In this document: positions 26,766-42,544 of the stretch, piece by piece
Numbering within the stretch: the first letter of the stretch is position 1
Layout of the letters: each line of letters starts with the position of its first letter
From: Prochlorococcus sp. AG-418-G18
Lineage (GTDB): Bacteria; Cyanobacteriota; Cyanobacteriia; PCC-6307; Cyanobiaceae
Assembly: GCA_003214215.1 (NCBI GenBank)
Contig: QCLX01000011.1
Span: 1 to 42,544, forward strand
DNA length: 42,544 nt
Direction of reading: 5' to 3'
Position numbers and translations under genes: made by a program
Notes under the pieces: generated by a model
What the model saw: only the letters and a program-made list of their open reading frames with translations
Told to the model about the DNA's origin: nothing
Database searches by the model: none

Positions 26766-26837
<72 letters not shown>

Positions 26838-26895
26838 CTCGCGGGATAGCTTGGTATCAGTGAGATTACCACTATCGCAGAAAGAAATTATTCAG

Positions 26896-26935
26896 AAGTG
26901 GACGTCCGTTTTCGGGTCCACTTTTTTGTTTTTAA
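26896..26935 (+). terminator. hairpin with T-tract after tRNA-Thr
   Basis: Stem AAGTGGAC/GTCCACTT (26896-26903 with 26926-26933) encloses a 22-base loop and runs into a T-rich tail. It lies 58 bases after tRNA-Thr and probably ends the tRNA transcript, or a short RNA from the region just before it, upstream of the integrase. Confidence 0.65.
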
Positions 26936-26977
26936 GGCAGATATCTGGAGGTGCATCACACAAACGATGACACCAAA

Positions 26978-27943: not shown

Positions 27944-28041
27944 CTTATTTAAAGCTCCAACGGGGGGGGGAGTTAAAGAAGTCTGCAACACGTATAAAAG
28001 TAAGAAGAAATTTTTATTAAAATTTCAAACGTGAAATTGAA

Positions 28042-28767: not shown

Positions 28768-28783
28768 TAAGTTATTTCTTTTA

Positions 28784-29674
28784 TTAAAAGTTCTTTGGGA
28801 TATAAATATCTTCCTCAAGAGTTTTCATGAATTTAGCATTACTTCTCCATTGGTTATATTGACGTTTATTTCTTGTTGTCAATCCAGTGTCATAAAAAAC
28901 ATCTTTGTTTTTTAAAAAACCTAGCCAATCATCTAAAACTATTTTTTTGAGAAATTTCAAACCATAAAAACCTCTTTTCTGATCAAAAAGACCAACAACA
29001 ATTCCATAAACACCAAATTTTCTTCTTATTCTTTCTTCAAGAGATACAGCAGCATTCTTTCCCTCAAACTGCACTTTTATAGGAAGATTATTTTCAACAA
29101 TATTTTCTCTAAAAGTTTTAAAGCTTGAGTCTGATCCATACCATTTATATATAAGAAGATTATTTTTCTGGAACTCTCTTGGAACACTCAATCCCTTTGA
29201 ATATCTTAGATCTTTATCGAAGTTATATTTTATTGAGATATCCGAATTATTTTCCTCCAATGATAGGCCTATATTTGTGGAGTCATTTATATAGGTTGGA
29301 ACATGTTCCCCGGACATAGAATAATAGATACCTTTTTCTAAATCATTCCTTTTAACACCCAAAGCCTCAACAAATTTCCACATATTTTTATAAGCATTTC
29401 CTTTCCTAAAAAGATCGTAGGATTCATCACAAAAAATTCTATAAGCTGGCCCCCAGTCACCCCAAGAAATTTTTTTAGATTCAATCTTACACTCAAAGCC
29501 ATCTAAATCTGCATTTCCATCAGCATCAATTTTTCCGCCCAAATTTGATTCCAGCCAATGTCCTTTTTTACCTTTATGATTTTTTATTAGATTATCTGAT
29601 TCTGGAAACCTTCCTACAACGTTTTTAAGAAAACTTTCAATAATCTTGGCTTTTGATTCTTCTTTGGAAATCAT
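28784..29674 (-). CDS. LlaMI-like type II restriction endonuclease (PD-(D/E)XK)
   Basis: A 296-residue protein. Near the N-terminus GHWLESNLGG (E42) is followed by NADLDGFECKIES, giving acidic residues D56/D58 and the E61-C-K63 catalytic signature, then KISWGDWGPAYRIF. This order of GHWLE, DLxGxExK and GDW is what I recall of the LlaMI / MutH-Sau3AI-like nuclease group; the exact family needs a search. It is downstream of the C5 methyltransferase on the same strand (117-base gap), so it is the probable partner. The cut site is unknown. LlaMI itself cuts CCNGG. Confidence 0.7.
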   Translation of the reverse strand: MISKEESKAKIIESFLKNVVGRFPESDNLIKNHKGKKGHWLESNLGGKIDADGNADLDGFECKIESKKISWGDWGPAYRIFCDESYDLFRKGNAYKNMWKFVEALGVKRNDLEKGIYYSMSGEHVPTYINDSTNIGLSLEENNSDISIKYNFDKDLRYSKGLSVPREFQKNNLLIYKWYGSDSSFKTFRENIVENNLPIKVQFEGKNAAVSLEERIRRKFGVYGIVVGLFDQKRGFYGLKFLKKIVLDDWLGFLKNKDVFYDTGLTTRNKRQYNQWRSNAKFMKTLEEDIYIPKNF

Positions 29675-29791
29675 TTATTTTAACAAAAGATTTTTAATCT
29701 TTATAAAAATAAAATTTTATATTTTTAAGAAAATAATTTTTTGATTTATTACGTCATCTTCATATTTTAGAAATAAAGATTTTCAATATTA

Positions 29792-30709
29792 CTAAAGATA
29801 CTCAACTATCTTTTTTGCAATTGCACGAATTACTGGCACTGAAACAGAATTCCCAAACTGTTTATAAGCTTGCATATCACTTACTGGAATTTTGAATCCT
29901 TCAGGAAATCCCTGTAATTTTCTTGCTTCATTTGGAGTAAGCATTCTAGGAGTTTCTTTACCATCATCAATCCATATTTCAGAACCATCTTTGTAGTATC
30001 TTGCAGAAATAGTACTTGTATATTCTGAATCTTTATTAAATAATGAGTATCCAAAACCATATCCTCTTTTACGATTATTCTCTTTCCTTCTTATAGCACT
30101 CTCCCACATTCTGCTGGAAATTGTGTATTTTTCAGGAATATTTTCATCCAGTATTTCTCCTAACTTAGTTTTGATATTTAAAGGATCAGGAAATTGAAAA
30201 AATATAAAGTCTATATATCCAAAAATAAAAATTCTTTCTCGATTTTGTGGAACCCCAAAATCTTTAGCATTTAAAATTTTATACTCAACCGTTTGATATC
30301 CTAATTCCCTTAAAACACTCATGATTGTGTTAAATGTTTTTCCACTATCATGACCTCTTAAATGTTTTACATTTTCCAATAAAAATGCTTTCGGCTTATG
30401 GTATTTGAGTATCCTTGCAATATCAAAAAACAAAGTTCCTCTTGTATCTTGAAATCCTTTCTTTAAACCAGCTTGAGAAAAAGCTTGACAAGGAAATCCG
30501 CCAACTAACAAATCATGCTTTGGAATCTCTTTTTCATCGATTTTTGTTATGTCTCCATAAGGGACTTCACCAAAATTAGCCTCATAAGTAATTTGAGAAA
30601 ATTTGTCCCACTCAGAAGAAAAAACGCATTCACCACCAAGTTCTTCAAAGGGAATCCTGATGCCGCCTATTCCCGCAAAAAGATCAATAAATTTAAACTT
30701 GCTAACCAT
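29792..30709 (-). CDS. dcm: DNA (cytosine-5) methyltransferase of a type II R-M system
   Basis: A 305-residue C5 methyltransferase that transfers methyl groups from SAM to cytosine in a short recognition site. Motif I is DLFAGIGGIR (9-18), motif IV holds the nucleophile C74 in GGFPCQAFSQ, motif VI is LLENVKHL, motif VIII is PQNRERIFIFGY, and motifs IX/X are RKLQGFPEG and YKQFGNSVSVPV. Target domain (about 195-255) is short and unrecognised. It shields the host from the nuclease encoded downstream and shares a divergent intergenic region with a second PD-(D/E)XK protein. Confidence 0.95.
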   Translation of the reverse strand: MVSKFKFIDLFAGIGGIRIPFEELGGECVFSSEWDKFSQITYEANFGEVPYGDITKIDEKEIPKHDLLVGGFPCQAFSQAGLKKGFQDTRGTLFFDIARILKYHKPKAFLLENVKHLRGHDSGKTFNTIMSVLRELGYQTVEYKILNAKDFGVPQNRERIFIFGYIDFIFFQFPDPLNIKTKLGEILDENIPEKYTISSRMWESAIRRKENNRKRGYGFGYSLFNKDSEYTSTISARYYKDGSEIWIDDGKETPRMLTPNEARKLQGFPEGFKIPVSDMQAYKQFGNSVSVPVIRAIAKKIVEYL

Positions 30710-30957
30710 TCTTATTTTCTTTAATTTAATAGAGATAAATTACAAAAAACCATGTTCTAATTTTAACTTTTTTAAAAGGTTTTAAAAGAACTTGTTTTGG
30801 GATAAAAATTAGTAATATTTAATAATTAAATTAGACAAAAATAATTTACTTGTAATGAATTATCAAAGATAAACCAACCTTAAAGTAATACAGATAAAGA
30901 CTAGAGCTATAATTTTGAAAATTTTATTAAATAAACAACTTTAAACTATTTAAAAAA
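30710..30957. promoter_or_regulatory. divergent intergenic region of the R-M cassette
   Basis: About 250 AT-rich bases separate the methyltransferase (-) and the second nuclease (+). The region must hold both promoters. I see no controller (C) protein gene and no obvious C-box. Confidence 0.4.
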
Positions 30958-32004
30958 TTGATGAATATTACAAGGGATCAAATTATAGATAGCCTATATA
31001 AAATAATGTGTACAAGCACAACCACGGCTATTGATAATAAAGTTTCAAATAATGATTATTTCAAAAGAAGAGTTTTAGGATTCAAAGCAGAGATTGAATT
31101 TGAAGAGGAATTAAAAAAATCAGATTTTAGCTTTCTAAAAGGGGGTATATTACTTTCCCCTAGGCTTGATGGAAGCAAAGATATGAAAAACAAATTTGCA
31201 TACATCACAATTGACTCATTACATCAAAATCAATATTTAGGGATATATTCCGGCATTTCCAAGTGGGATGAAATAGAAATTTTATATTATGCAAAAATTA
31301 ATTTGGAAGACTGGAGAGAAGAAAATTATGAAGTAAAAGAAAATAAGGGGGCAAAATTAGTAAACAAAAAGATACTTGTTCCAAGCTTTAAATTATTTAA
31401 ATTTGATAGAAATTCAAATTCTTTTAAAGAGAGTTTTGAAAACAATTTCTCAGATATTTTAAAAATAGGAAATAAAAGAACAAAAAAATCATCTAAGTTT
31501 CATTTGAGGAAAAGAGAACACTTTGATTATTTCAAAAATTATGATCTTGAAACTCTAAAAAAAATTTATGCCGAGAGATATTTTCTTGATAAAAAAAAGA
31601 ATGAAGATGTAATAGTTAATACTATTGATCTAGATGGATTTATTATTAAAAAAGAAAAAACATTTATTGTAGAAATCAAAGAAAAAACGCCAATAAAACC
31701 AGAAAATATTAAATCAATGAGCAATAAACATTTTTGGTCGTATGGTTGGGATACAAGAAGAATATTATGGTACTCAGAAGTTCAAAAAAAGACCGGTTTT
31801 GAGATTTTTTATATAGTCAGACAAATTGAGAATAGAAAAGATAGAAAATTTGTTCAATGGGATGGTATTTCTTTAAATGATTATTTAAAGGGGATTTCAT
31901 GGAGCAACTCAACAGGAGGAGGTGGAGGCGGTGACACTTTAACTGTGCCTTATAATCATTTTCTTAGTCTTCAAAAATTATTAGATAAAACATATTTATT
32001 TTAG
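30958..32004 (+). CDS. putative PD-(D/E)XK restriction endonuclease, unassigned family
   Basis: A 348-residue protein divergent from the methyltransferase. A nuclease core is suggested by D224/D226 in TIDLDGF followed by IVEIKEK (E239, K241), with an upstream helix glutamate (E45 in GFKAEIEFEEEL). Near the C-terminus six glycines (320-325) run into DTLTVPYNHF, a pattern that may hold DNA or a nucleotide loop. I recognise no named family. It is AT-rich like the methyltransferase and lies tail-to-tail with vsr. It could be the true restriction partner or an independent nuclease. Confidence 0.6.
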   Translation: MMNITRDQIIDSLYKIMCTSTTTAIDNKVSNNDYFKRRVLGFKAEIEFEEELKKSDFSFLKGGILLSPRLDGSKDMKNKFAYITIDSLHQNQYLGIYSGISKWDEIEILYYAKINLEDWREENYEVKENKGAKLVNKKILVPSFKLFKFDRNSNSFKESFENNFSDILKIGNKRTKKSSKFHLRKREHFDYFKNYDLETLKKIYAERYFLDKKKNEDVIVNTIDLDGFIIKKEKTFIVEIKEKTPIKPENIKSMSNKHFWSYGWDTRRILWYSEVQKKTGFEIFYIVRQIENRKDRKFVQWDGISLNDYLKGISWSNSTGGGGGGDTLTVPYNHFLSLQKLLDKTYLF

Positions 32005-32012
32005 TTTTTAAA

Positions 32013-32438
32013 CTATCTTTTTTTGATAAATTTTTTAAAAATTTGCTCTAAATTTATTTTTTTATTTCTTATTTCACATTCCCAGATAATAATAATTTTC
32101 CAACCCTTTGAAGACAAATTTTCTTGATTTATCTTATCTCTATTGATATTTTCATTGAATTTTTTATTCCAGAATTCCTGTCTTGTTTTTGGAGTGGAAG
32201 CATACTTGCAATTCTGATGCCTATGCCAGAAACATCCATGTACAAAGATAACAGTTTTATATTTTGGGAGGACAATATCAGGAGACCCTGGTAAATTTTT
32301 TGAATGAAGTCTGAATCTATATCCCATTGAATGGAGAACTTTTCTAACCTTGATTTCAGGCTTTGTATTCTTCGATTTAATGGCAGACATATTCCTTGAT
32401 CTCTGCTCACTTACCTCATGTATTACTTCACTACTCAT
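32013..32438 (-). CDS. vsr: very short patch repair endonuclease
   Basis: A 141-residue Vsr-type nuclease that nicks 5' of the T in T:G mismatches left by deaminated 5-methylcytosine. The N-terminal block MSAIKSKNTKPEIKVRK, catalytic D54 in GSPDIVLPKYK, the zinc and active-site region HGCFWHRHQNCKY (His 68, His 72, Cys 77) and WECEI near the end are family hallmarks. Length fits (about 135-155). It accompanies the C5 methyltransferase of the same island, in which case it would limit C-to-T mutation at that system's sites. Confidence 0.93.
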   Translation of the reverse strand: MSSEVIHEVSEQRSRNMSAIKSKNTKPEIKVRKVLHSMGYRFRLHSKNLPGSPDIVLPKYKTVIFVHGCFWHRHQNCKYASTPKTRQEFWNKKFNENINRDKINQENLSSKGWKIIIIWECEIRNKKINLEQIFKKFIKKR

Positions 32439-32754
32439 CTAAACAATCAGTTTTAAACAATATACTCACCATCACCCTATAGGTACCTTTATACAGTACG
32501 TGCATTATGTGTTTACACACATACCCACGTATCAGATATAAGAAGTTTAGTTGTAGTTGAGAGTGGTTTATTTTCAGTACTTACAATGATGATGTATACA
32601 CATCCAGTAAGTAGTCCCTACTCAATCTCCTGTCTTTTTCCCTTTCTCCCCGTGTTTAATGAGGGAGTTGGATAAATCATTGCAATTACTGGGATCTCAG
32701 AGGTCAGCATTTTACATGAAATTCATATATATTTAACAGAGTTTGTCTTCAGTA
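32439..32754. other. gene-poor gap after vsr
   Basis: About 316 bases. They contain an inverted repeat ATGTGT-TTAC-ACACAT (32507-32522), which resembles a small dimer-binding site, and a 29-codon frame at 32586-32675 that I do not accept as a gene. The vsr promoter should be near 32440-32500. Otherwise nothing is recognised. Confidence 0.4.
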
Positions 32755-32949
32755 ATGTCACTATCGTCATACAGGATGCATAGAATTTATCTTGCAGCGA
32801 CCATGAATTATGGTCTTGGTTCTGATGATCCAGAAGAGTTTGCTTACTACAACAAAATCAGAAAAGAGATGGATGATATGAAAAAAGAGCCAGTTAAAAA
32901 AGGTATACCCCTTATTAATTGGGATACCCCCAAAGGAATAGATAAATGA
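32755..32949 (+). CDS. small hypothetical protein, 64 residues
   Basis: No known family. The N-terminal part (SSYRMHRIYLAAT) is followed by DDPEEFAYYNKIRKEMDD and KKGIPLINWDTP. The IRKE(M/L) and I(N/D)W pattern recurs in the small protein at 34068-34247, suggesting related proteins. Start ATG 32755 is chosen; a TTG 12 bases upstream is possible. The stop overlaps the start of a tiny membrane-protein frame by 4 bases (ATGA), which argues for translation coupling. Confidence 0.6.
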   Translation: MSLSSYRMHRIYLAATMNYGLGSDDPEEFAYYNKIRKEMDDMKKEPVKKGIPLINWDTPKGIDK

Positions 32950-33041
32950 ATCTGAATACTTTTTTATTAATTGATGGGAGTCTGATGCTTATTGGTCTAC
33001 CTTTACTGATGATTCTTAAAGGCAAAAAGAAGACTCCCTAA
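32946..33041 (+). CDS. 31-residue single-span membrane microprotein
   Basis: Sequence begins MNLNTFLLIDGSLML and ends LKGKKKTP. One hydrophobic span (about 5-24) is followed by a basic tail, so the N-terminus is likely outside. The ATG overlaps the preceding stop as ATGA, and spacing supports coupled translation. A similar protein with N-x-F and KGKK at the end occurs at 39189-39278 in the same island. Too small for a family assignment. Confidence 0.5.
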   Translation: MNLNTFLLIDGSLMLIGLPLLMILKGKKKTP

Positions 33042-33045
33042 GTCA

Positions 33046-33828
33046 TTATTTAACCGCGAAAGTTACTCCCATAACGGCAGTTATATCTTTCTTAATTGTA
33101 GTCGTATCATAAGAACCCCAGCTACTTACTCTCGTGGAATTAGGAACTGTTATCTGGAAAACACCTGTATTGACTTTCTTAAGACCACCCACTTCAGATC
33201 CTGCCTGAAGGGCAATAGCCTCAGCTCTGATTCGGGCATCCTTTGCAGCTTTTGCGAGCATATCAACTCTTTTATCAGCAAGCTTTGAATATGTGAATTC
33301 TGGAGAGCTTGGTCTTACTAAAACACCATCTCCAAGAAGTTCAGTTATCTTGCTGTGGGTCTTTTGAATTCGATGAACATCATTGCTCTGGATTTCAATA
33401 CTCTGATAGGTAATCCATTCAGTTCTTATAATTTCATTTGTCTTGGGATGCTTGGTTTCATATTCTTTTATGCTGGCAGGTCCTAGATAAACTTCCTGTT
33501 TTATACCATCTTCAATTCCATTGGCTTTAAGAAAATTCATAGTCTTTTTCATTGACTCCTTATGCTTGTTGAATGAGTCGATCTGAGTCTTTCCTGTAGC
33601 CCTTACCTGCACGGACCACTTAGCAATATCACTCTCAAAACTTTCAGTACTTGCGCCTGTAACAGTGATGGAATTCTCAACCATTCTGAACCCTCTCACA
33701 AGGACCGTGGAGGCGCCTATAAATCCTCCGAGAGATAAGACAGCCATTGCGAAAACAAGTGGCGGGGTGCGGCGTATAACACCCAGAGAATCGCTTGGCA
33801 GCGACCTGAGTCTCTTAATAATTTTCAT
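33046..33828 (-). CDS. SIMPL (DUF541) domain protein, membrane-anchored
   Basis: A 260-residue protein with a basic N-terminus, one hydrophobic span at about 24-45 (PPLVFAMAVLSLGGFIGAST) and a SIMPL domain over about 50-255. Markers are ENSITVTGAS near 51, SVQVRATGKTQI, and DARIRAEAIALQAGSEVGG near 195. It is probably exported and membrane-tethered. The domain's biochemical role is unresolved; it is linked to signalling and stress in other bacteria. Base composition is visibly higher in G+C than the neighbouring AT-rich genes. It is convergent with the microprotein gene, 4 bases away. Confidence 0.85.
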   Translation of the reverse strand: MKIIKRLRSLPSDSLGVIRRTPPLVFAMAVLSLGGFIGASTVLVRGFRMVENSITVTGASTESFESDIAKWSVQVRATGKTQIDSFNKHKESMKKTMNFLKANGIEDGIKQEVYLGPASIKEYETKHPKTNEIIRTEWITYQSIEIQSNDVHRIQKTHSKITELLGDGVLVRPSSPEFTYSKLADKRVDMLAKAAKDARIRAEAIALQAGSEVGGLKKVNTGVFQITVPNSTRVSSWGSYDTTTIKKDITAVMGVTFAVK

Positions 33829-34067
33829 TGTCTATCAGTATGTGTGTAGGAGCTTTTTAACAGCTGAACCGAAAGAAAAATTATTAGAAAATCCCTGACT
33901 TTTATTCTTTCGTTTCTATCTGGCCATTAATGGAAACATCTTATGTTGATGTGCCAATTTTGGAGTCGGTTACTTATATTGCCAAATGAAATAATTGTTC
34001 GCAAGAAGTATATTTGTATTATGAGAAAAATTATTTAGAACTAAAAAATTTCTATATAAACCAAACT

Positions 34068-34247
34068 ATGGAATTATTTACTAGAGAAACTATTGGCAAC
34101 TACACAAATGATCCTTACGCAAAGAATGATCATAAATATTCCAAAGAAATGCAAGAGATAAGAAAAGAATTAAGAAAGCTAGATCAAGAAACCAAAAAAG
34201 ATGGGGGAGTGATTGATTGGAATTATATGCTCAATGACATGATGTAA
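34068..34247 (+). CDS. small hypothetical protein, 59 residues
   Basis: Predicted from ATG 34068; a TTG at 34014 would lengthen it by 18 residues. The sequence is charged and helical (YSKEMQEIRKELRKLDQETK) and ends GGVIDWNYMLNDMM. The IRKEL and IDW pattern resembles that of the small protein at 32755-32949. It shares its last base with the start of the Zn-ribbon gene (TAATG overlap), so they should be coupled. Function unknown. Confidence 0.6.
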   Translation: MELFTRETIGNYTNDPYAKNDHKYSKEMQEIRKELRKLDQETKKDGGVIDWNYMLNDMM

Positions 34248-34744
34248 TGGGGAAAAGAGGAAAGCCAAAAAGAATAATCCGATGCAGCAAGCCAACTGTT
34301 TGCCCAGAGTGCGGTAATAGAAAATTTTTAATTATTTTTTATGGTATGCCAACTCAAAAGGTTTGGGATGATACTGGGAGGTATGACTGTAGAGGATGTT
34401 GTCTACCTCCATTTGTAGAAGTTGTAGACCATAAAGATGGCAATATATATCATTGCCCAGAGCCAAAATATGTATGTAGTAAGAAGAGTTGCAGTTTAGA
34501 AGTTTATCTGAGAGAAGAGGCAGAAATAATGCCGCCAATAGATGACTCATCTTATTTCAATGGCAGTAAATGGATTGAGAGCGATTTTGTAATTCAAAGC
34601 CAACAGGCAGCAAGATTAAGAAACAAAGTTTGGGAGAATGGTGGCAATGGAGAAGAAGCATTGCAAAAAGCGTTTAAAACTAAAACTATCCGGCAACTAC
34701 ATCAACTCCAAAGAGAATTATTAGGATGTAAAAATAAGGATTGA
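34247..34744 (+). CDS. Zn-ribbon protein, unknown function
   Basis: A 165-residue protein. A basic N-terminus (GKRGKPKRIIRC) is followed by CPECGNRKF (Cys at 19 and 22) and YDCRGCC (Cys 48, 51, 52), which together form a likely four-Cys zinc ribbon, and further cysteines in YHCPEPKYVCSKKSC. The C-terminal half is helical with QQAARLRNKVWENGG and TIRQLHQLQREL. I recognise no family. A zinc-stabilised nucleic-acid-binding or transcription-accessory role is a guess based on the basic ribbon. It is coupled to the small gene immediately before it. Confidence 0.65.
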   Translation: MGKRGKPKRIIRCSKPTVCPECGNRKFLIIFYGMPTQKVWDDTGRYDCRGCCLPPFVEVVDHKDGNIYHCPEPKYVCSKKSCSLEVYLREEAEIMPPIDDSSYFNGSKWIESDFVIQSQQAARLRNKVWENGGNGEEALQKAFKTKTIRQLHQLQRELLGCKNKD

Positions 34745-34778
34745 TGAAAATTAAAGTGAATTAAAGAACTACTTTGAC

Positions 34779-35633
34779 TTAAAAAAGGTTCCCCTGAATC
34801 TCTTCACTATCATCTTTCACAGGATTACAAACTAACTTGGCATATTGCTCGGAATAAGCACAATTTTTACAGGATAGATTTGGTTCCGGGATCTTGTCAT
34901 TATTCATCAAAGAAACCATTGAATCTATTTCTTTTTCAATCCAATCAATATTCCAATCATAAGGGACTAAATATTCGTCAAAATTCATTCTTTTATTAAA
35001 TTCCTCGTCATCTCTTTTTGCATTACAAACTAAAAAATAAGATGTTTTATGAACATCAAATCCCATTCCTTTTAGAAGATATGCATAGAAATCCATCTGA
35101 ATTTTATATCCTTCATGATATGGATCATCAAGATAATCTTGTTTATCTACTCTCCCAAGTTTTGCCTGAGATTTATAATCAACGACTATTAATTGCTTTG
35201 TAATCTTATGCTGCCAGATATCATCAACTCCTCCGGTCAAAATTATGTTTGTATCCTTATGACGAAGCATTAATCCTTTATGGAGTGAATTACGCCAATC
35301 ATCTATCTCAGGATGATCAAAAGGAACTAGATGACTTAAATCATTATCGATGAATAATCTATGTGGAATTTGTCTTTCTCGGCAATAATCAAATTCTTTT
35401 TTTAACAGCAAATCAGTCGTTTCATTTAAAGTCCATCCAGGAGTTCCTGGTGGGTCTAAACCTTTTACTCTATCCAAGTAAAAACATCTTTTGCAGGTTA
35501 AAAAATTGGAAAACCTTCCTCTACTAATTTTGAAATCTTCCTTCTGATTAGGAGAATAAGAAGAAGATGCTCTTGTTCTTAATCCAGTAGCTTTTACGGG
35601 TTCCTTTTGACTATTTCTTTTAAGATCTATCAT
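34779..35633 (-). CDS. Cas4/RecB-like PD-(D/E)XK nuclease with Fe-S cysteines
   Basis: A 284-residue nuclease-type protein. Catalytic pattern: D137/D138 in LTGGVDDIW, D152-x-K154 in IVVDYKSQ, and a helix with QMDFYAYLL (Q179). Cysteines 47 and 50 (CKRC) in the N-terminal region and 255, 258, 269 (CKNC...C) at the C-terminus fit the 4Fe-4S frame of Cas4/AddB-type nucleases. Such proteins resect DNA ends or trim fragments. No CRISPR array or other cas gene is seen. It closes a - strand run of four small-to-medium genes, 9 bases after the previous stop. Confidence 0.75.
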   Translation of the reverse strand: MIDLKRNSQKEPVKATGLRTRASSSYSPNQKEDFKISRGRFSNFLTCKRCFYLDRVKGLDPPGTPGWTLNETTDLLLKKEFDYCRERQIPHRLFIDNDLSHLVPFDHPEIDDWRNSLHKGLMLRHKDTNIILTGGVDDIWQHKITKQLIVVDYKSQAKLGRVDKQDYLDDPYHEGYKIQMDFYAYLLKGMGFDVHKTSYFLVCNAKRDDEEFNKRMNFDEYLVPYDWNIDWIEKEIDSMVSLMNNDKIPEPNLSCKNCAYSEQYAKLVCNPVKDDSEEIQGNLF

Positions 35634-35642
35634 GTTTTTTAT

Positions 35643-36119
35643 TCAAATTAATATCTCTAGTTTTCCTTTTATAAAATATTCCACCTCTGCGAAACCAGAG
35701 CCTTTGGTAGTCATTCTTTTTAACATCCAATTTGCTGCTTCTTTGTGTAAAGGTGGTTGAGGTTGTTCAGATACTACAGAACAACAGTACTCAGGTACTT
35801 TTGACCAGTGACTCCATTCTTTATCCCACCAAATAGCAAAGAGTGAATAAACTTCCATATGAGATGCTTTCCATTGTGTTTCCGTAAATGATGCAACATA
35901 AAAATATGCTTTTTTTGGGGAGTACTTTTCATACAAAAAAGTTGCTACTGGAATAGTATCTTCAGGATTGCAACTCTCTAACTTATTACGGTCATGTGAA
36001 TACATCTCATCTTCATTGTGAGCCAGCTTACCTTTGGGATTCATCGCTCCAGCAAAAGCTACTACCTCATCGTGAAAGTAATCTTTTATTTGATAAGCTT
36101 CTTCTCCCATCAAAATCAT
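35643..36119 (-). CDS. hypothetical protein, 158 residues
   Basis: No family recognised. It is soluble-looking, tryptophan- and histidine-rich (FAIWWDKEWSHWSKVPEYCC), with an acidic N-terminal half (AHNEDEMYSHD) and a short basic end. ATG 36119 or the in-frame ATG 36110 could be the start. It lies 7 bases after the DUF1330 stop and 9 before the Cas4-like start, so these genes form one operon. Confidence 0.55.
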   Translation of the reverse strand: MILMGEEAYQIKDYFHDEVVAFAGAMNPKGKLAHNEDEMYSHDRNKLESCNPEDTIPVATFLYEKYSPKKAYFYVASFTETQWKASHMEVYSLFAIWWDKEWSHWSKVPEYCCSVVSEQPQPPLHKEAANWMLKRMTTKGSGFAEVEYFIKGKLEILI

Positions 36120-36126
36120 CTGAGAC

Positions 36127-36468
36127 TCACAAACCCATTGCTCTTCTTAGCTTTGCAGCTTCATCTAAACCTTCCATCACTGTAAAAGTTGAATTTTCAG
36201 TTGCTTCTTTTCTTAGCTTTGAAAGCTCTTTATATTCTTCAGATTCATAAGCTTCAACGGCTGCCCTCATTGATGGGAATTCACAAATAACGGCTAAATT
36301 GGCATCCTCAGTCCTTTCCTTCCCTTGAGGCTCTGTATCTTTTGCAAAGACTTTGCCTCCAACCTCTTTCAACCAAGGACCAACTTTATTTACATATTCA
36401 TCAAATAAGTCTTGATTAATAATTTTTGCCGTAGATATCCAGTAACCTTTAGCCCCTTTTTTGTCCAT
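36127..36468 (-). CDS. DUF1330 domain protein
   Basis: A 113-residue protein with the DUF1330 pattern: YWISTAKIINQDLFDEYV at the N-terminus, GGKVFAKDTEPQG, a central ICEFPSMRAAVEAYESEEY and a C-terminal AAKLRRAMGL. The family has a ferredoxin-like dimeric barrel fold; its substrate is unknown. It is the first sizeable gene in the operon ending with the Cas4-like nuclease. Confidence 0.8.
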   Translation of the reverse strand: MDKKGAKGYWISTAKIINQDLFDEYVNKVGPWLKEVGGKVFAKDTEPQGKERTEDANLAVICEFPSMRAAVEAYESEEYKELSKLRKEATENSTFTVMEGLDEAAKLRRAMGL

Positions 36469-36494
36469 TTATTTATATTAGTATTTGAATTAGA

Positions 36495-36629
36495 TTACAA
36501 CATCTCGTATTGATCAAATTTAATTTTTAACTTTGCTGCTTTATGGATTAATCCAACTGCCTCTTTTCTTCCAGTAGCTTGTTGAGCCTTGCGCATTAAG
36601 TCAGCATATTTTTTGTTTAGTTTTTTCAT
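36495..36629 (-). CDS. 44-residue basic small protein
   Basis: Starts MKKLNKKYADLMRKAQQATG and continues RKEAVGLIHKAAKLKIKF. It is lysine-rich and helical, ends with QYEML, and lies 26 bases upstream of the DUF1330 gene on the same strand. No family recognised. It is kept because the frame is uninterrupted, begins with ATG and fits the operon; it may be a small accessory protein. Confidence 0.5.
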   Translation of the reverse strand: MKKLNKKYADLMRKAQQATGRKEAVGLIHKAAKLKIKFDQYEML

Positions 36630-36856
36630 CAGTTTACTTTTTCAGATTTATATACACAGGTTTAATAAGTGATTGTCATTCTTTGCATTTGCTCTATGGG
36701 ATAGATCAACACAATTTGCTTATCAGAAAGTATTTGACTTTTGCAGGTGGGATTCTTTTTCAAAAATTCTTTAGCTAGCCAATATTGCTTAGTCTTATCT
36801 CTACCTGAGATCTATTAATAATAACACATTTACAAAAATAGATCTTTGAAAGATGC

Positions 36857-37150
36857 TTAACTCTCTAGATACCTACAAATAAATTCAAAGTTTTCATAGT
36901 CCATAGTTATTGTCTTAAACATATCTGTTTCTATTTTTTTATTCCCAGAATTCTGCAATTCAACTTTAATAGATGGATGTTTTATTGAGTAAGTTGGAGT
37001 AAAGCCAATACGCTTTGCACGTTTGTGCAAATCCTTTTTAAGTCGAGGATCGCATCCACAGAACAAGATAGTTGGCCTAGAAGAATTACCTATGGAAGCA
37101 TCAGCAATTCTTTGTTCTAAATCGGATGCGATATTTTCGAGAACTTTCAT
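36857..37150 (-). CDS. hypothetical protein, 97 residues
   Basis: No family recognised. It has a hydrophobic beta strand and a cysteine pair in TILFCGCDPRLKK (about 29-41), a basic helix (DLHKRAKRIGF) and an acidic end. The composition suggests a small folded cytoplasmic protein. It is separated from the operon at 36629 by 227 empty bases and probably has its own promoter in the AT-rich region near 37150-37200. Confidence 0.5.
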   Translation of the reverse strand: MKVLENIASDLEQRIADASIGNSSRPTILFCGCDPRLKKDLHKRAKRIGFTPTYSIKHPSIKVELQNSGNKKIETDMFKTITMDYENFEFICRYLES

Positions 37151-37445
37151 TCAAATTTTTTTACTGCAGGGAGGATAATTAATAACCAATATTATTTCTT
37201 GGGTTGGTTATGTAAATTATTAGATTTAGAACGTAATTAGCAGGCAAGTTTAATGGTTTCAAAAGTAGCAAGGCCATTCCCTGAGTTACGTTAAATCCTT
37301 TTTCTTCCATAAATAAAAGAAGGGGCTCATATATACATTGTAGATAGATTGTCAATTATTAAATTGGTCAAAAGGTGTTGAATCAAAAACTAAGTATTTT
37401 ATTTAAATTTTTAAAATCTAGTATTAAGTTAATAATTTAAGGTAG
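37151..37445. other. intergenic gap with no recognised gene
   Basis: Almost 300 AT-rich bases. Only a 13-codon frame beginning with ATG near 37253 is seen, too short to trust. It separates a - strand hypothetical gene from the + strand small ORF, so promoters for both probably lie here. Confidence 0.4.
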
Positions 37446-37586
37446 ATGGAAATAATTTTAAAAAGAGAGACTTCATTAGGTTTAGAATCCTATGAAGATC
37501 TAGGTTTTAATTCCGAAGAGGAACTTGAATTAGAAATTTCTAAACTTAGTAAATTTAGACCTGAATTTGATACTAACTTGAAATAA
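37446..37586 (+). CDS. 46-residue acidic small protein
   Basis: Frame starts MEIILKRETSLGLESYEDLG and continues with NSEEELELEISK. Acidic helical composition and an ATG start support it, but no family is recognised. It stands alone on the + strand in front of the light-stress cluster and faces the - strand hli operon. Confidence 0.45.
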   Translation: MEIILKRETSLGLESYEDLGFNSEEELELEISKLSKFRPEFDTNLK

Positions 37587-37687
37587 GTTAATAGCGGTTC
37601 AGAAAGTAAACGAATTATTTTATATTCTTTATCCTTTAAGTATTAGTTTAAACTTGATTTTTCCAAGTCACTTGCGCAATAAACATT

Positions 37688-37721
37688 AAAAAAAGTCAGC
37701 CTGTATCCCTACTAGCTGACT
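37688..37721 (-). terminator. terminator of the - strand hli operon
   Basis: Stem AGTCAGC/GCTGACT (37694-37700 with 37715-37721) closes a 14-base loop. On the - strand it runs into a T-tract (the A run at 37688-37694). It ends the transcript of the microprotein and hli genes. Confidence 0.85.
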
Positions 37722-37746
37722 TCCATGACTATGCAAGTTATAAAAA

Positions 37747-37854
37747 CTATACGAATGTATTTGTTGTTGTGATGCTTAAAACAACTGCAACAAAGAATAT
37801 GTAAGGAACCACCTTAAGTGGGACATATCCTTGTCTTTTAGATATGAAATCCAT
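37747..37854 (-). CDS. 35-residue membrane microprotein downstream of hli
   Basis: Begins MDFISKRQGYVPLKVVPYIF and ends SITTTNTFV. A short basic N-terminus precedes one hydrophobic span (about 15-29). The ATG follows the hli stop directly without spacer, so it is translated from the same mRNA. It may be a partner of the HliP or a photosystem-associated peptide, but this is inference. Confidence 0.65.
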   Translation of the reverse strand: MDFISKRQGYVPLKVVPYIFFVAVVLSITTTNTFV

Positions 37855-37989
37855 TTATACAAATCCCGGAATAATTTGTCCTGTTGTTAGATATGCGCCA
37901 ATAAGGGCAATAAAGCCAATCATCGCAAATCTACCATTGAGCTTCTCAGCTACAATTTTTTCCTTCTCAACTGTTTTTGTTTCGTTCAT
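37855..37989 (-). CDS. hli: high-light-inducible protein (HLIP), 44 residues
   Basis: A single-helix chlorophyll-binding protein of the thylakoid membrane. Starts MNETKTVEKEKIVAEKLNGR; the chlorophyll-binding signature ELNGRxAMIG appears as EKLNGRFAMIGF. It ends with TGQIIPGFV, a tail typical of the multi-copy HLIP group also found in cyanophages. HLIPs protect photosystems under high light and nutrient stress. Two codons downstream lies the microprotein ATG. Confidence 0.92.
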   Translation of the reverse strand: MNETKTVEKEKIVAEKLNGRFAMIGFIALIGAYLTTGQIIPGFV

Positions 37990-38116
37990 TTGTTTGGTTG
38001 GTTGTTTAGCTAAGACGCTTCCTAATGCAATCTTGAAACAAATCTAATAATTGAAAATTATAAGTGTGAGTATAATTACTTATTCTCATACCCTCTATAA
38101 GCTGAACTTATTAAAG

Positions 38117-38266
38117 CTATTTTCCTGCATTTGCATATTCGAGATTAAAAAAATATTTTTCACCATCATCATTACTGTCATCGTCATCATCATTGAAAGA
38201 GGCAATTAAGACATAAACGCCTCCCAGCCCAAGGATCATCGATAGGTAGAGAATAGGATCAGTCAT
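38117..38266 (-). CDS. 49-residue acidic single-span membrane protein
   Basis: Starts MTDPILYLSMILGLGGVYVL: one hydrophobic span (about 5-22), then an acidic loop with five consecutive Asp (NDDDDDSNDDGEKY) and a short polar tail. No family recognised. It lies between two hli units on the - strand. The acidic run may bind Mg2+ or Ca2+, or sit at the membrane surface; this is a guess. Confidence 0.55.
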   Translation of the reverse strand: MTDPILYLSMILGLGGVYVLIASFNDDDDDSNDDGEKYFFNLEYANAGK

Positions 38267-38482
38267 TATTTAATCTTGAACAATCAAAAACAAATCCGGG
38301 GAAGCTTTTTCATATCTCTATGATCTTTTAATTATTAGCTTCAACTTTAAAAATTAATTACTAGCTATTACATATCTGTATCAGAATTGCTTTAAAAGTA
38401 CCGAATTAAACATATTTTCAACCTTTTTCTTTACATAAGTTAATAAGAATGTTACGTTTGTTAACAATTAAATTATTTACTA

Positions 38483-38692
38483 ATGACTAATTCTTCATAC
38501 ATAACTACAGAATCAGGCGGAAGGCAAAATATTTTTCCAACTGAGCCTCGTCCTTATGTTGATCAATCTGTTTCTTACGACGGATATCCTCAAAACGCAG
38601 AAAAAGTTAATGGTCGTTGGGCAATGATTGGTTTAGTTGCACTTTTGGGAGCTTATGTAACTACAGGTCAAATAATTCCAGGTTTCTTTTAA
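38483..38692 (+). CDS. hli: high-light-inducible protein (HLIP), 69 residues
   Basis: The N-terminal 40 residues (TESGGRQNIFPTEPRP) form an extension before the single transmembrane helix. The chlorophyll motif is EKVNGRWAMIG and the end is TGQIIPGFF. Stop and next start overlap as TAATG, giving tight coupling to the following hli gene. ATG at 38483 is the first of the + strand hli operon; the upstream AT-rich region (38280-38480) should hold a light-responsive promoter. Confidence 0.93.
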   Translation: MTNSSYITTESGGRQNIFPTEPRPYVDQSVSYDGYPQNAEKVNGRWAMIGLVALLGAYVTTGQIIPGFF

Positions 38693-38952
38693 TGTCTCCT
38701 CTTTCAGGTTTTTTAGCTGTAATCGTATTCTTCACAGCTATCCTCGTTGCTTATCTAACAAAGCAATTTCAAAACGAAAATTTAAACTATCCAACTTCAA
38801 ATCCAATGACAAATTTAAATACTAAAGTTAAAACAATCGAAAAAGAAAAAGTTGTTGCAGAAACTCTTAATGGCAGATTCGCAATGCTTGGTCTAATTGC
38901 TGCTGTCGGAGCTTACTTAACAACAGGCCAAATAATTCCAGGTTTCGTTTAA
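38692..38952 (+). CDS. hli: HLIP with N-terminal membrane extension, 86 residues
   Basis: Unlike the usual 35-70-residue HLIPs, it begins with a separate hydrophobic span (FLAVIVFFTAILVAYLT, about 7-23), followed by a polar linker and then the standard HLIP module with EKEKVVAETLNGRFAMLG and TGQIIPGFV at the end. It may therefore cross the thylakoid membrane twice. The HLIP module closely resembles that of the - strand hli, suggesting recent duplication. Start 38692 shares a base with the previous stop. Confidence 0.9.
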   Translation: MSPLSGFLAVIVFFTAILVAYLTKQFQNENLNYPTSNPMTNLNTKVKTIEKEKVVAETLNGRFAMLGLIAAVGAYLTTGQIIPGFV

Positions 38953-39180
38953 ATGCTTTTACTCTCAGTACCATTTTACGATTTTCCATCTTCGCCCATA
39001 CTAATAATTGGCGCGATAGGAATAGTTGTAGCTCTGGCTGTATTTTTTCTGGCTTACAAAAAGTACTTTAATTCTCCATTTAACAAAGAACTTCAATTAA
39101 AGAAAAAAGCTCTATTGAAGGAGAAAACAGAACTTAACAAAAAACTTGAGAAAATAGATCAAGATTTAAAAAATTTATAG
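38953..39180 (+). CDS. 75-residue membrane-anchored coiled-coil protein
   Basis: One transmembrane span (about 16-36, ILIIGAIGIVVALAVFFLAY) follows a short N-terminal segment. The rest is a lysine-rich coiled coil (LQLKKKALLKEKTELNKKLE). The ATG directly abuts the upstream hli stop, so it belongs to the hli operon. It could scaffold or anchor the HLIPs or their assembly partners; function is not known. Confidence 0.75.
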   Translation: MLLLSVPFYDFPSSPILIIGAIGIVVALAVFFLAYKKYFNSPFNKELQLKKKALLKEKTELNKKLEKIDQDLKNL

Positions 39181-39188
39181 TGAAATCC

Positions 39189-39278
39189 ATGAACATTGAC
39201 ATTTTCCTAATCTCTTTTTTTACTTATCTCTTAGTACCAGTAGTGATGATCGCTAAGGGGAAAAAAGCAACTAACTAA
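39189..39278 (+). CDS. 29-residue single-span membrane microprotein
   Basis: Sequence starts MNIDIFLISFFTYLLVPVVM and ends IAKGKKATN. One hydrophobic span and a basic tail. It lies 8 bases after the coiled-coil gene on the same strand. The pattern MN-x-x-x-F...P...KGKK matches the microprotein at 32946-33041, so the two may form a family of island microproteins. Confidence 0.5.
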   Translation: MNIDIFLISFFTYLLVPVVMIAKGKKATN

Positions 39279-39310
39279 AAAAAGATTCAAGCTCCCAAAA
39301 ATAAGAATTT

Positions 39311-39375
39311 AAACTCTATTCAATACTTACAAAGTCGTTATAGAGTTTTCATATAAGTTTAAGGAGGCTAATCTT
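39311..39375 (+). promoter_or_regulatory. hairpin and strong Shine-Dalgarno leader
   Basis: Stem AAACTCTAT/ATAGAGTTT (39311-39319 with 39340-39348) closes a 20-base loop. AAGGAGG follows at 39361-39367, 8 bases before ATG 39376. This is the clearest Shine-Dalgarno motif I noticed in the window. Confidence 0.6.
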
Positions 39376-39562
39376 ATGACCAACCTCGCTATTGAGCTAC
39401 TGGTTTTAATTGTAGTTTTAGTAAATTTTGGAGCAATCCTTACAGCTAATATCTACTCAAAATCAGTAAAGGAATTTAGACGCAATAGATTATTTTGCAG
39501 TAAGTCTTTCAGCAATCCTTATTGCATTATCTGAGCAAAATTTGGCTCATAAAGTCAAGTGA
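39376..39562 (+). pseudogene. small membrane protein interrupted by a +1 frameshift
   Basis: The frame from ATG 39376 gives MTNLAIELLVLIVVLVNFGA and continues to KEF, then shifts into a poor frame ending at 39534. Reading +1 from about 39478 gives DAIDYFAVSLSAILIALSEQ followed by NLAHKVK and a stop at 39560-39562. The joined protein would be about 61 residues with two membrane spans. A single base change (one extra A) explains the break; assembly error or programmed frameshifting are alternatives. Preceded by a strong Shine-Dalgarno site. Confidence 0.55.
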
Positions 39563-39648
39563 TTTCAAAGAAAAATCTCAGCAAAAGTCCAATTATTATA
39601 AGTTTCTGTATAGGAACAATACAGGAAATTATTAATTCAGCTCAGCAT

Positions 39649-40026
39649 TTAACAGCATGAACAATCACTTTCAGATTCAGGATGAGAAGATTCCAAGGCA
39701 TCGGCGATATCTCTAAGCATTTCCGCCACATACCCTGGTGGACATTGAAACTTAGCTATATATTCGACACTCTTCTTCGCCATTTCTGTATATGCGGGAA
39801 TGATCAAATCATCAATCTGATTCTGAGTCGGTTTCCATATCGCTTCGCAACTGTCGGTCATCTCTAAACTTATAGTTTCTACAATATAGTTTGAACTCCA
39901 GCTGATATCAAGATCAAAAGATACATATGTAGAAGTACAAGATTTTAGTGGACATAGAGTAGTTACAGCACTCCCTAGAAATAATTTGACAGTCACAGAT
40001 GGGTCGTTTAAATTTATCTTGCACAC
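39649..40026 (-). CDS. hypothetical Cys-rich C-terminus protein, 125 residues
   Basis: No family recognised. The sequence begins MCKINLNDPSVTVKLFLG, has a beta-rich N-terminal half and a helical C-terminal half (AYTEMAKKSVEYIAKF, EMLRDIADALES), and ends in SDCSCC. The terminal cysteines could bind metal or be modified. It lies next to the right edge of the island, just left of the decayed tRNA copy. Confidence 0.5.
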   Translation of the reverse strand: MCKINLNDPSVTVKLFLGSAVTTLCPLKSCTSTYVSFDLDISWSSNYIVETISLEMTDSCEAIWKPTQNQIDDLIIPAYTEMAKKSVEYIAKFQCPPGYVAEMLRDIADALESSHPESESDCSCC

Positions 40027-40062
40027 TTCAGAATCTTTGTGCTGCAGGCAATCACGAACGGT

Positions 40063-40156
40063 CCGACCCGGACAACTTTAAATTGCCCTTGTAGCTCATC
40101 GGTGTAGCACTACCTTGGTAAGGGAGAGGTCTCGGGTTCAAGTCCTGACCAGGGTA
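40063..40156 (+). pseudogene. decayed tRNA-Thr copy with a remnant of the tRNA-Tyr end
   Basis: Bases 40085-40156 align with tRNA-Thr (26766-26837) at 65 of 72 positions by my count. Mismatches break the acceptor stem, the D-stem and one anticodon stem pair, so it should not fold as a working tRNA. Upstream, 40063-40080 also resembles the last bases of tRNA-Tyr (CCGACCCGGACA against CCAACCCGGCCCA), so the duplicated stretch covers more than one tRNA 3' end. Confidence 0.85.
40113..40145 (+). repeat. right copy of the 33-base direct repeat
   Basis: Identical to 26794-26826 within tRNA-Thr. Likely marks the far attachment site of the island. Confidence 0.7.
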
Positions 40157-40389
40157 TGAAGAGGAGAAATTCCCGAAATTGAGTTTATAAGTTCTTGAAA
40201 AAATTAAGTTTTAGATTACTAAATATAAACTAATAAGAAAATATTATTTAATTATTAAGTTATTTTTTCCCCTTTGTAAGATAGATTTAGGTTTGGATTT
40301 ATAAGAGGATATAAATCTATAATGATATTAAATTTTTTATCCTAATGTATAGGATCAAATCAATAGAAATCAACCCTACCTTTGATTAA

Positions 40390-41592
40390 GTGAAATTTAG
40401 AAAATTTTTTAATTATCCGAACAAATTTAATTTTTTTTATGTAATTAATAATTTTGCAAAAATCTATTTCAAGATTTTTCAAAGCAAAATAAATAAAAAT
40501 AAAGTGATTTTAATTAATATCTCAGAAATCCATTATTTAGAGCACGTAAGACACTATATTAAAGTAATTAATAAATTAAGTTCTGCAGAAATCTTTGTTG
40601 TTACAAGAGATATTTACATCGAAAATAGAAATATTAAAAATTTAGGAAAATTTATATTTCCAATACGGTTTCTAAAATTTACTTATTTTGTAGATTTATT
40701 TATTTCACCTTGTATTGAAGTACAGAAACCAAAAGGTTCTTATTCTATTCACGTATTTCATAATCAACCAATCAAGTACTTAGCATATCCAGAAAAATAC
40801 TTAAAGCATTTTGAAGAACATTTTATATGGGGTTCATTTATGCGTAGATGGATGGAAGATATGCTTAGTAAAAAATCATTTAGTGCGAAACTAACAAATA
40901 TTGGGAATCCTAGGATAGATTACGAACACAATAAAATTAAACCCAAAAATAAAAATACAAAAATATTGTCAATTGGGTACGCGCCTACTTGGGATAAAGG
41001 ATTATCTCTAGATATAGCTGGTTTAGATATAATAAAGAAAATACTTTCTATTAAAAATTCAATTTCATATATCAGATTACATCCTTGTTCAAGAACAACT
41101 AAGAAGGCAAACGAAAACTTCACTAATAAAGAAAATTGGTTAGATAAAATAGAAAGTATAGGTTCAAAAAATTTAGAATTTTCTCATAATATTTCTACTA
41201 TAGAGTATTTATCTAAATTAGATCTTTTAATAACAGATGTAAGCAGTATCTCATTTGAAGCATTCCTTCTTGATATCCCTGTGATTTTTTTCCATACCGA
41301 TGAGTTTTGGGATAATTACAGAAAATCTATATATAAAAATTTTCTACTAAGAGATAATTTTAATAATTTTGAAAAAAATAAATATGTTAATGGAGGCCGA
41401 TCTGCAGGAACTGTTGTTTATAATGTTGATGAATTATTAGATGTTATAAATAATATAAAGGGCAATGCTGATAAGACAAAAAGCAAGAGGAGAAAATTTT
41501 CTGAAAGTTTACTTTATAACAAGGATATATCTTCAAAGATTATCAAAAAAAGATTAGAAAAATTACTTTTTTCAAAAAATAATTTTCTTTAG
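40390..41592 (+). CDS. CDP-glycerol glycerophosphotransferase-like (TagB/TagF) protein
   Basis: A 400-residue protein with a GTG start. The family signature is in the C-terminal half: YAPTWDKG (about 199-206), an IRLHP block and the long LITDVSSISFEAFLLDIPVIFF stretch, here quoted in parts as LITDVSSISFEAF then LLDIPVIFF. Such enzymes transfer glycerol phosphate or similar alcohol phosphates from CDP carriers to glycans. Here it probably decorates a cell-surface polymer. It is convergent with the alcohol dehydrogenase, and stops overlap by 4 bases. AT-rich like surface-polysaccharide genes. Confidence 0.8.
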   Translation: MKFRKFFNYPNKFNFFYVINNFAKIYFKIFQSKINKNKVILINISEIHYLEHVRHYIKVINKLSSAEIFVVTRDIYIENRNIKNLGKFIFPIRFLKFTYFVDLFISPCIEVQKPKGSYSIHVFHNQPIKYLAYPEKYLKHFEEHFIWGSFMRRWMEDMLSKKSFSAKLTNIGNPRIDYEHNKIKPKNKNTKILSIGYAPTWDKGLSLDIAGLDIIKKILSIKNSISYIRLHPCSRTTKKANENFTNKENWLDKIESIGSKNLEFSHNISTIEYLSKLDLLITDVSSISFEAFLLDIPVIFFHTDEFWDNYRKSIYKNFLLRDNFNNFEKNKYVNGGRSAGTVVYNVDELLDVINNIKGNADKTKSKRRKFSESLLYNKDISSKIIKKRLEKLLFSKNNFL

Positions 41593-42544
41593 TATACATT
41601 TAAGTTAATTAAAGATTCATACAATATTTTCTCAATATCTCTTGTATTTACTTCGCGTATATTATTTTTTGACCGCTCTGGATTATTCATAGAATTAGAT
41701 AGTAATAATATTTCTTTAATATCATTTGGTAAATGAGATTTAAGTAAATCTGGAATTTTAAATAAAATTAGGAGATTTTTTAATTTGACTGATAATTCAT
41801 TAATATTTGGAATTTTTAAATCTTCAGCTAGTTTTGCTAATCTACCATCATCTTCATGAGAATTAAAAATCAGTATAGAAGGCAAGGCAAAACTACATGC
41901 AACCCCATGAGATAAATTAAAATTTGTTGTAAATGGATATGATATCGAATGTGCCAAAGCAGTTTTAGTACTTGAAATAGCTATTCCTGCTAAAGAGCTA
42001 CTTTTTAGCATTTCTAACCTTAAGTGTTTTGAAGTTTTATCTTTTAATAATTTAGGAAGTATTTCTAATGAAATTTTCAATGATTTTGTAGCTATCTCTA
42101 TTGATTCATTCGATGCATTTTTATTCCAAATAGATTCAAAACCATGTGAAATGGTGTCTAATCCAGCACTTATAAGAGTTCTTTCAGGAAGATATTTCAT
42201 AAAACCTTCATCATATAAAGCAATTTTAGGCCTTATAAATTCAGAAGAAATTGAACATTTTTTCTTATTTTTAATATCCCATACAGTAGCAAATTGAGTC
42301 ACCTCAGCTCCTGTACCTGCTGTTGTGGGTATGGCAATTATTGGAATAGTTTTTATATCTTTTATTTGAATTTGTTTTTCAAAAAATTCATTAATGCTGA
42401 AATTACAATCTTTTGATATGAACAAAGAAATGACCTTTGCAGTATCAATAACACTTCCCCCTCCTAACGCAACTATTGAATCTATTTTTTCATCTTTGAA
42501 GTAGCTAATATACTTTTTGATTTCAGATATGTCAGGATTAGGAC
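41589..42544 (-). CDS. iron-containing alcohol dehydrogenase, phosphonoacetaldehyde reductase-like (partial)
   Basis: The gene enters from the right edge; about 318 codons are visible. The in-frame reading from the edge contains IDSIVALGGGSVIDTAKVI, the NAD-binding signature, so the start is outside the window, not at the internal ATG at 42425. PTTAGTGAEVTQFA is the family core. Metal ligands are D and H in GLDTISHGFES, H in LAHSISYPF and H in LSHGVACSF. The FESIWNKNAS and SHGVA region resembles phosphonoacetaldehyde reductases (PhpC type), which make 2-hydroxyethylphosphonate. Substrate is inferred; other short-chain aldehyde reductases are possible. Confidence 0.78.
   Translation of the reverse strand, partial: PNPDISEIKKYISYFKDEKIDSIVALGGGSVIDTAKVISLFISKDCNFSINEFFEKQIQIKDIKTIPIIAIPTTAGTGAEVTQFATVWDIKNKKKCSISSEFIRPKIALYDEGFMKYLPERTLISAGLDTISHGFESIWNKNASNESIEIATKSLKISLEILPKLLKDKTSKHLRLEMLKSSSLAGIAISSTKTALAHSISYPFTTNFNLSHGVACSFALPSILIFNSHEDDGRLAKLAEDLKIPNINELSVKLKNLLILFKIPDLLKSHLPNDIKEILLLSNSMNNPERSKNNIREVNTRDIEKILYESLINLNVY

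Follow-up and report, generated by a model that had tools for sequence, protein, structure and literature searches.

Marine phosphonates feed both the release of methane in the open ocean and its phosphorus supply. The present study concerns the right edge of a contig of Prochlorococcus sp. AG-418-G18 (QCLX01000011.1), analyzed over its entire length of 42,544 nucleotides and termed the window in the following, where a transferase gene of the family PF04464 meets the gene of an iron-containing alcohol dehydrogenase (ADH). The closest described system is found within the same genus, as pepM, aepY (ppd) and phpC have been reported together in Prochlorococcus (Lockwood et al. 2022, PMC9381506), and nearly all of its phosphonate cassettes reside in genomic islands (Acker et al. 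2022, PMC8931226). Among the neighbors of pepM-aepY-phpC-type clusters in general are genes for lipopolysaccharide choline phosphotransferases (PMC9381506), and a precedent for activation to the CMP form by a cytidylyltransferase domain is provided by Fom1 (Rice et al. 2019, PMC6697681). In the examined parts of the Prochlorococcus literature, we found no assignment of an enzyme that hangs phosphonate on macromolecules.

In our reading, the right edge of the window is probably a broken-off pepM-ppd-ADH phosphonate cassette at a tRNA-Thr island site that makes 2-hydroxyethylphosphonate (2-HEP), with the PF04464 protein as a candidate for the transfer of the phosphonyl group to a surface glycan. 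PepM would convert phosphoenolpyruvate (PEP) to phosphonopyruvate, Ppd (phosphonopyruvate decarboxylase) would yield phosphonoacetaldehyde, and the window ADH would turn this into 2-HEP, the sole step with direct sequence support here. A cytidylyltransferase domain fused to PepM would then produce CMP-2-HEP, from which the PF04464 transferase would pass the phosphonyl group to a surface glycan or a glycan-linked carrier, in a role that may fall in sister genomes to the LicD-like and CDP-alcohol-type transferases near pepM. The features in question are the following:

40390..41592, + strand: PF04464 (CDP-glycerol:polyglycerolphosphate glycerophosphotransferase family) transferase; GTG start, 400 aa; PF04464 is its sole Pfam match (39.1 bits, gathering cut-off 22.1)
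41589..42544, - strand: iron-containing ADH, TIGR03405-like, proposed phosphonoacetaldehyde reductase; 5' end lost at the contig end, open reading frame (ORF) read from 41589-42542, 317 aa
40084..40157, + strand: second tRNA-Thr(ggt) copy, identified with ARAGORN; both right-edge genes lie behind this boundary

The window represents the entire contig, and its end at 42544 falls inside the ADH gene. A glycerophosphotransferase-like gene and an iron ADH had been named as neighbors in an earlier sequence-only reading of this DNA, and indeed both ORFs are present and belong to the Pfam families stated. They stand tail to tail, with 3' ends overlapping by 4 bases, and being convergent they therefore form no single operon.

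The dehydrogenase and its phosphonate-linked relatives

The ADH matches the Pfam families PF00465 Fe-ADH (110.8 bits) and PF25137 ADH_Fe_C (83.1 bits), and its best NCBIfam model is TIGR03405 Phn_Fe-ADH with 244.2 bits, the next family reaching 147.2. Residues 1-295 align to positions 60-353 of the 355 in this model, and some 59 N-terminal residues are absent. D129, H133, H198 and H212 are present at four positions that correspond to the metal ligands of FucO-type enzymes. A phylum-wide search with TIGR03405 was non-discriminating and remained unused, with 265 of 386 genomes matching at E <= 1e-30 and none over the cut-off; many of the best matches listed are proteins of about 900 residues, presumably bifunctional AdhE. 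A scan of viral_contigs that is sensitive to close relatives returned no close kin of the window ADH.

The genus was represented by 266 genomes, our own included (genomes and loci are designated G and L below). With a threshold of E <= 1e-20, ADH relatives turned up in our own genome and in 6 of the 265 others, and the PEP mutase model TIGR02320 had matches in 9 of the 265, eight over the cut-off and the ninth clipped by a contig end. All six ADH carriers fall among these nine pepM genomes (Fisher p 1.8e-10 over 265 genomes, with kinship ignored), and in each of them pepM, ppd and ADH follow one another in that order on one strand, with a gap of 0-40 bases between ppd and ADH. Seven genus genomes, the six carriers among them, have ppd over the TIGR03297 cut-off. 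The motif EDKxxxxxNS was found in one reading frame in each of the nine pepM loci; in G206 the contig ends inside pepM. As judged by these six of six carriers, the window ADH is of the type typical of the third cassette position, and it shares 41-42% identity with the pepM-ppd-linked ADH of G015.

We further scanned genome_contigs with the ADH alignment and took the best 80 loci, which extended the comparison beyond the genus. In 10 of these best 80 loci pepM was found (in L061 its end only), and all ten also carry ppd; seven of them have the ADH after ppd, and in L061, L063 and L083 it is flanked by pepM on one side and ppd on the other. Seven further loci have phnX and/or phnD, each sought with one sequence, beside the ADH. 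In L033 this is a phosphonoacetaldehyde hydrolase with 324.5 bits (cut-off 220), and in L032 a phosphonate-binding protein with 250.0 bits for the PhnD model, just below the cut-off of 261.1, that does exceed the cut-off of a subfamily model.

Two ADH trees were calculated, a quick one with 87 rows and a careful one with 34 rows of our own choice, namely all 15 rows of the clade containing the window ADH and 19 others. As evidenced by support values of 99 in the quick and 100/98 in the careful tree, the window ADH clusters with ADHs beside phosphonate genes. The clade comprises 6 pepM-linked rows (three from the genus, L028, L029 and L030), 7 phnX/phnD-linked rows and L035, where neither was found. 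The remaining three genus ADHs form a separate group in the tree with the other pepM-linked ADHs. Within the clade the window ADH joins the 6 pepM-linked rows as a sub-clade with support of 88 (quick) and 89/86 (careful, unstarred), and the shortest path distances in the tree connect it to L030 and L029. A phosphonate kinship of the window ADH is thus well supported by sequence comparison. Of the 2-HEP pathway proposed earlier, this tree grouping and the six of six genus carriers behind pepM-ppd uphold the dehydrogenase half, while pepM and ppd themselves would be located beyond base 42544.

Note that glutamine at the second metal-ligand position, H133 in the window, occurs in 10 of 16 pepM-linked ADHs (L019-L024, L028, L040, L056 and L088) versus 1 of 70 others, the window excluded. 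This residue may be a sign of a different metal or of use as a reductase only.

The PF04464 transferase and its setting

Characterized members of PF04464 use CDP-glycerol or CDP-ribitol. The window protein is a weakly scoring member that reached 21 of the 500 bits needed for the TarB model, and by itself it matched no chain in the PDB up to E 1. In an alignment with the PF04464 proteins of the pepM loci L029, L030, L040 and L056, however, A198-P199, H231-P232, D278, I281 and D283 are invariant, and a profile of these five rows found TarL (5.5e-14), Cps3D (1.2e-12) and chains of TagF (4.6e-11 to 1.1e-9) in the PDB, as well as weak matches to UDP-GlcNAc 2-epimerases (6e-4, 4e-3). At E <= 1e-8 the other 265 genomes of the genus contain no relative, and no close one was found in genome_contigs or viral_contigs, in scans that address close relatives only and from which near-own records were possibly excluded. 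As far as sequences can tell, the kinship of the window protein with those of other pepM loci is at the level of the family.

The family nevertheless recurs in this setting. Of the ten non-genus loci in which pepM, ppd and ADH occur together, five contain PF04464 (L028, L029, L030, L040 and L056), versus 0 of 50 pepM-lacking ADH loci (Fisher p 4.6e-5), in a comparison without taxonomic matching of the two sets and with pepM loci commonly sitting in glycan clusters. The gene follows the ADH directly in L028, is the third gene after it in L029 and also lies after the ADH in L040; it is located upstream of pepM with one ORF between in L030 and directly before pepM in L056. Of the 70 pepM-lacking loci, the 50 with the lowest numbers served as the control. 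PF04464 is present somewhere in 13 of these 50 genomes but in no case inside the locus: in 6 of the 13, matches in the locus range showed in-frame stops and were therefore assigned to other contigs, and the other 7 were outside the range by eye. For the ten pepM loci, three PF04464 matches of L096 within the range were dropped because of in-frame stops, a match of L061 lies beyond the length of the contig and one of L063 outside the examined stretch.

In the sister genomes of Prochlorococcus, the transferase neighborhood is readable in five pepM loci; the contigs of G174, G119 and G089 are shorter than 5 kb. In G015, a neighbor of pepM is a LicD gene (39.4 bits). A CDP-OH_P_transf gene is found in G220, G077, G011 and G206 (49 bits in Pfam for L022, the others 52-73% identical to that of L022), and the same four genomes have a gene for a protein of 387-390 aa upstream of pepM. 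With the LicD model, the latter scores 23.7 bits in L024, over the cut-off of 22.6, 21.8 in L027 and 17.5 in L022; the L022 protein shows 29% identity over 164 residues to the LicD protein of G015, and that of L023, outside the LicD scan, is 44% identical to it. L022 and L024 each have a Wzy_C gene on the opposite strand that faces the ADH, accompanied in L022 by a sugar transferase gene. Judging from these matches, the five readable loci likely carry transferases of CDP-linked groups, so that the PF04464 gene could fill that place in the window. LicD was not found in our own assembly.

In G095, no such transferase was present among the three neighboring genes scanned. Its locus (L026:9110-12791) consists of pepM, a cytidylyltransferase with a weak, below-cut-off match to class-V aminotransferases and a shorter ppd-like gene, without ADH, and we infer that it resembles an arrangement of the 2-aminoethylphosphonate (2-AEP)/PntC type.

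The most serious alternative accepts a biosynthetic ADH, but takes the PF04464 protein for an unrelated island neighbor engaged in making or priming a glycan phosphodiester of the glycerol-phosphate or another type, and we consider its chances substantial although below even. It draws on the convergent genes, with PF04464 on the strand opposite to the ADH and no common operon, on the fact that island genes often swap neighbors, and on the CDP-glycerol and CDP-ribitol donors of the characterized enzymes. Further points against a joint function are that none of the 9 pepM genomes in the genus has a PF04464 match, and that the window protein has no pairwise similarity to the PF04464 proteins of other pepM loci (phmmer, E <= 1, ORFs of 11 loci). 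The five of ten loci against none of 50 speak for a functional link, within the limits of the unmatched taxonomy and the frequent location of pepM loci in surface-glycan clusters. Attachment of 2-HEP to a surface glycan by this protein, as envisaged in the sequence-only reading, thereby gains indirect support, with the nine genus genomes counting against it and with donor and acceptor both putative. The phosphonate of Prochlorococcus strain SB, moreover, was recovered in the protein and not in the polysaccharide fraction, for which the authors' explanation was glycans on membrane proteins (PMC8931226).

Beyond the window, we tentatively suggest that PF04464 (TagF/TarB-like) is a recurrent, hitherto unassigned family of phosphonyl transferases using CMP-2-HEP from pepM, ppd and ADH for phosphonate-bearing surface polymers in at least Pseudomonadota, Bacteroidota, Bacillota and a marine picocyanobacterium, a generalization that we ourselves regard as doubtful. 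If the pairing with pepM, ppd and ADH does reflect function, it provides a concrete and testable transferase family for the attachment step. A search of the open-access literature returned no report of a pairing of PF04464 or a glycerophosphotransferase with pepM.

Some of these loci show unusual domain fusions. In L056, PF04464 and a 60KD_IMP (YidC-type) domain share one protein, encoded immediately ahead of pepM (L056:2793-4682), and an ADH with an N-terminal MobA-like NTP transferase domain (NTP_transf_3) adjoins pepM and ppd (L056:7131-8840); the latter is a one-protein link between the alcohol-forming and the nucleotide-activation steps. In L040 (L040:4083-8474), pepM-ppd-ADH is followed by the PF04464 gene and then by a fusion of 60KD_IMP (YidC-type) and sulfatase-like domains, so that such domains recur with PF04464 in L040 and L056.

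Breakdown, missing genes and the contig boundary

A role in phosphonate breakdown or conversion, where the ADH would oxidize 2-HEP or reduce phosphonoacetaldehyde derived from 2-AEP with no pepM nearby, is in our view unlikely. Its support comes from the seven near relatives that adjoin phnX and/or phnD, such as L033 and L032, and from the metal ligands: the window ADH has the combination DHHH, as do all 7 phnX/phnD-linked ADHs, whereas the six genus pepM-linked ADHs all show DQHH. Two pepM-linked enzymes close to the window, L029 and L030, however, are DHHH as well. In the trees, an 8-row clade of catabolic type is closed without the window ADH (100/100), but approximately unbiased (AU) tests retain a grouping of the window ADH with these 8 rows (p 0.156) and also a position outside the other 14 rows of its clade (p 0.295). 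The window ADH and several Prochlorococcus rows have an odd composition that could draw them together in the tree, but the rows closest to the window ADH by path, L030 and L029, are not from Prochlorococcus. A biosynthetic rather than a catabolic kinship is preferred mainly because all six other carriers in the genus are biosynthetic and phnX exceeds its cut-off in none of the 266 genus genomes. Among 13 other ORFs in the right third of the window that were scanned with Pfam, no phnX or phosphonate ABC (ATP-binding cassette) transporter family was present; the upstream side of the ADH is off the contig.

Several further observations weigh against a biosynthetic cassette. With 244.2 bits, the window ADH remains under the curated equivalog cut-off of TIGR03405 (423.7). 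Six full-length pepM-linked ADHs (L019, L020, L021, L022, L024 and L029) likewise stay below it with 144-367 bits, and of eight related ADHs scanned only L033 (544.6) and L032 (434.7), from loci with phnX or phnD, are above. Matches to the phnX model below the cut-off occur in 75 of the 266 genus genomes, the best at about 85 of 220 bits and none in our own. In G089, the place after pepM-ppd is taken by another ORF that breaks off after 99 aa and has no Pfam match, and in G095 pepM is accompanied by a ppd-like gene, with the ADH absent. In addition, 53% of phpC genomes were reported to be without pepM (Lockwood et al. 2022, PMC9381506).

The assembly of AG-418-G18 amounts to 1.15 Mb in 40 contigs, with a completeness of 66%. 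Neither pepM (TIGR02320) nor any match to TIGR03297 was found in it, again to the detriment of a biosynthetic cassette. A match to TIGR03297 of some kind, mostly weak and presumably due to other thiamine-diphosphate enzymes, probably of the IlvB type, is present in 85 of 87 near-complete genus genomes and in 219 of 266 overall. As this near-universal match is gone from our assembly as well, the absence can be put down to the third of the genome that the assembly lacks. Since the contig, moreover, breaks off at the very point of the expected continuation of the cassette, the lack of pepM says little. With the spacing of the relatives, the near end of ppd would be expected some 180-240 bases beyond 42544.

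The proposed cassette lies just to the right of the second of two copies of tRNA-Thr(ggt), at 26766-26838 and 40084-40157, with 89% identity over 94 bases. DNA matches to five relatives stop at 40154, the end of the second copy, and the PF04464-ADH stretch is unmatched in all five. That the sequence to the right of 40157 is an assembly chimera or a contaminant is very improbable, for although the assembly is incomplete, the GC content falls to 0.243 and 0.275 in the PF04464 and ADH genes and the former has no relative in the genus, the matches end at a natural integration boundary and not at a random point, the GC content at third positions (0.177, 0.151) stays inside the span of 0.151-0.369 shown by the other window genes of at least 600 bases, the lower value falling on its limit, and the estimated contamination is 0.18%. 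The contig probably originates from a marine cyanobacterium.

Between the two tRNA copies lies a 13-kb element (26766-40157) that also contains GST-like (glutathione S-transferase-like) and DUF1330 genes, in addition to the following:

26951-27943: tyrosine (phage-type) integrase
28784-29674: LlaMI-type endonuclease
29792-30709: C5 DNA methylase
32013-32438: Vsr

The element resembles a tycheposon, a name used in PMC10872708. At the same tRNA, G005 and G008 have a like integrase and a stretch like that at about 32136-34000, the two being separated by other genes. The element of G005 is then also followed by a second tRNA-Thr, but beyond it come genes that G133 and G253 share to the right of the tRNA.

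Comparison with known systems

A cassette of this kind is already known in Prochlorococcus, and it is the PF04464 partner that is less familiar. The window shares with the pepM-ppd-pdh cassette of, for example, strain SB (PMC8931226) the iron-containing ADH of the third step and the position in a genomic island, and with the sister cassettes their setting amidst surface-glycan genes. It differs in that its ADH faces a convergent PF04464 gene, in place of the LicD-like and/or CDP-OH_P genes of the five readable sister loci, and in that pepM and ppd would lie past the contig end. With respect to TIGR03405 Phn_Fe-ADH (PsrA) and the PhpC-type phosphonoacetaldehyde reductases, the window ADH has this as its top family by a wide margin and its kin adjoin phosphonate genes, but it is under the equivalog cut-off.

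The Pnt pathway (PMC6697681) offers a parallel for the later steps, in that the PepM of L022 combines CTP_transf_like (PF01467 cytidylyltransferase) with PEP_mutase in one chain, as in Fom1, and transferases for CDP-linked groups are nearby. The PntC enzymes of that study, however, prefer 2-AEP, whereas the third gene here would yield 2-HEP, and the transferase family is not LicD. To PF04464 polymerases and primases of the TagF/TarL/Cps3D type, finally, the window protein is linked by common invariant positions in its C-terminal half and by the profile match to TarL, Cps3D and TagF, but it differs from these enzymes as a single chain of 400 aa with a weak score for the family.

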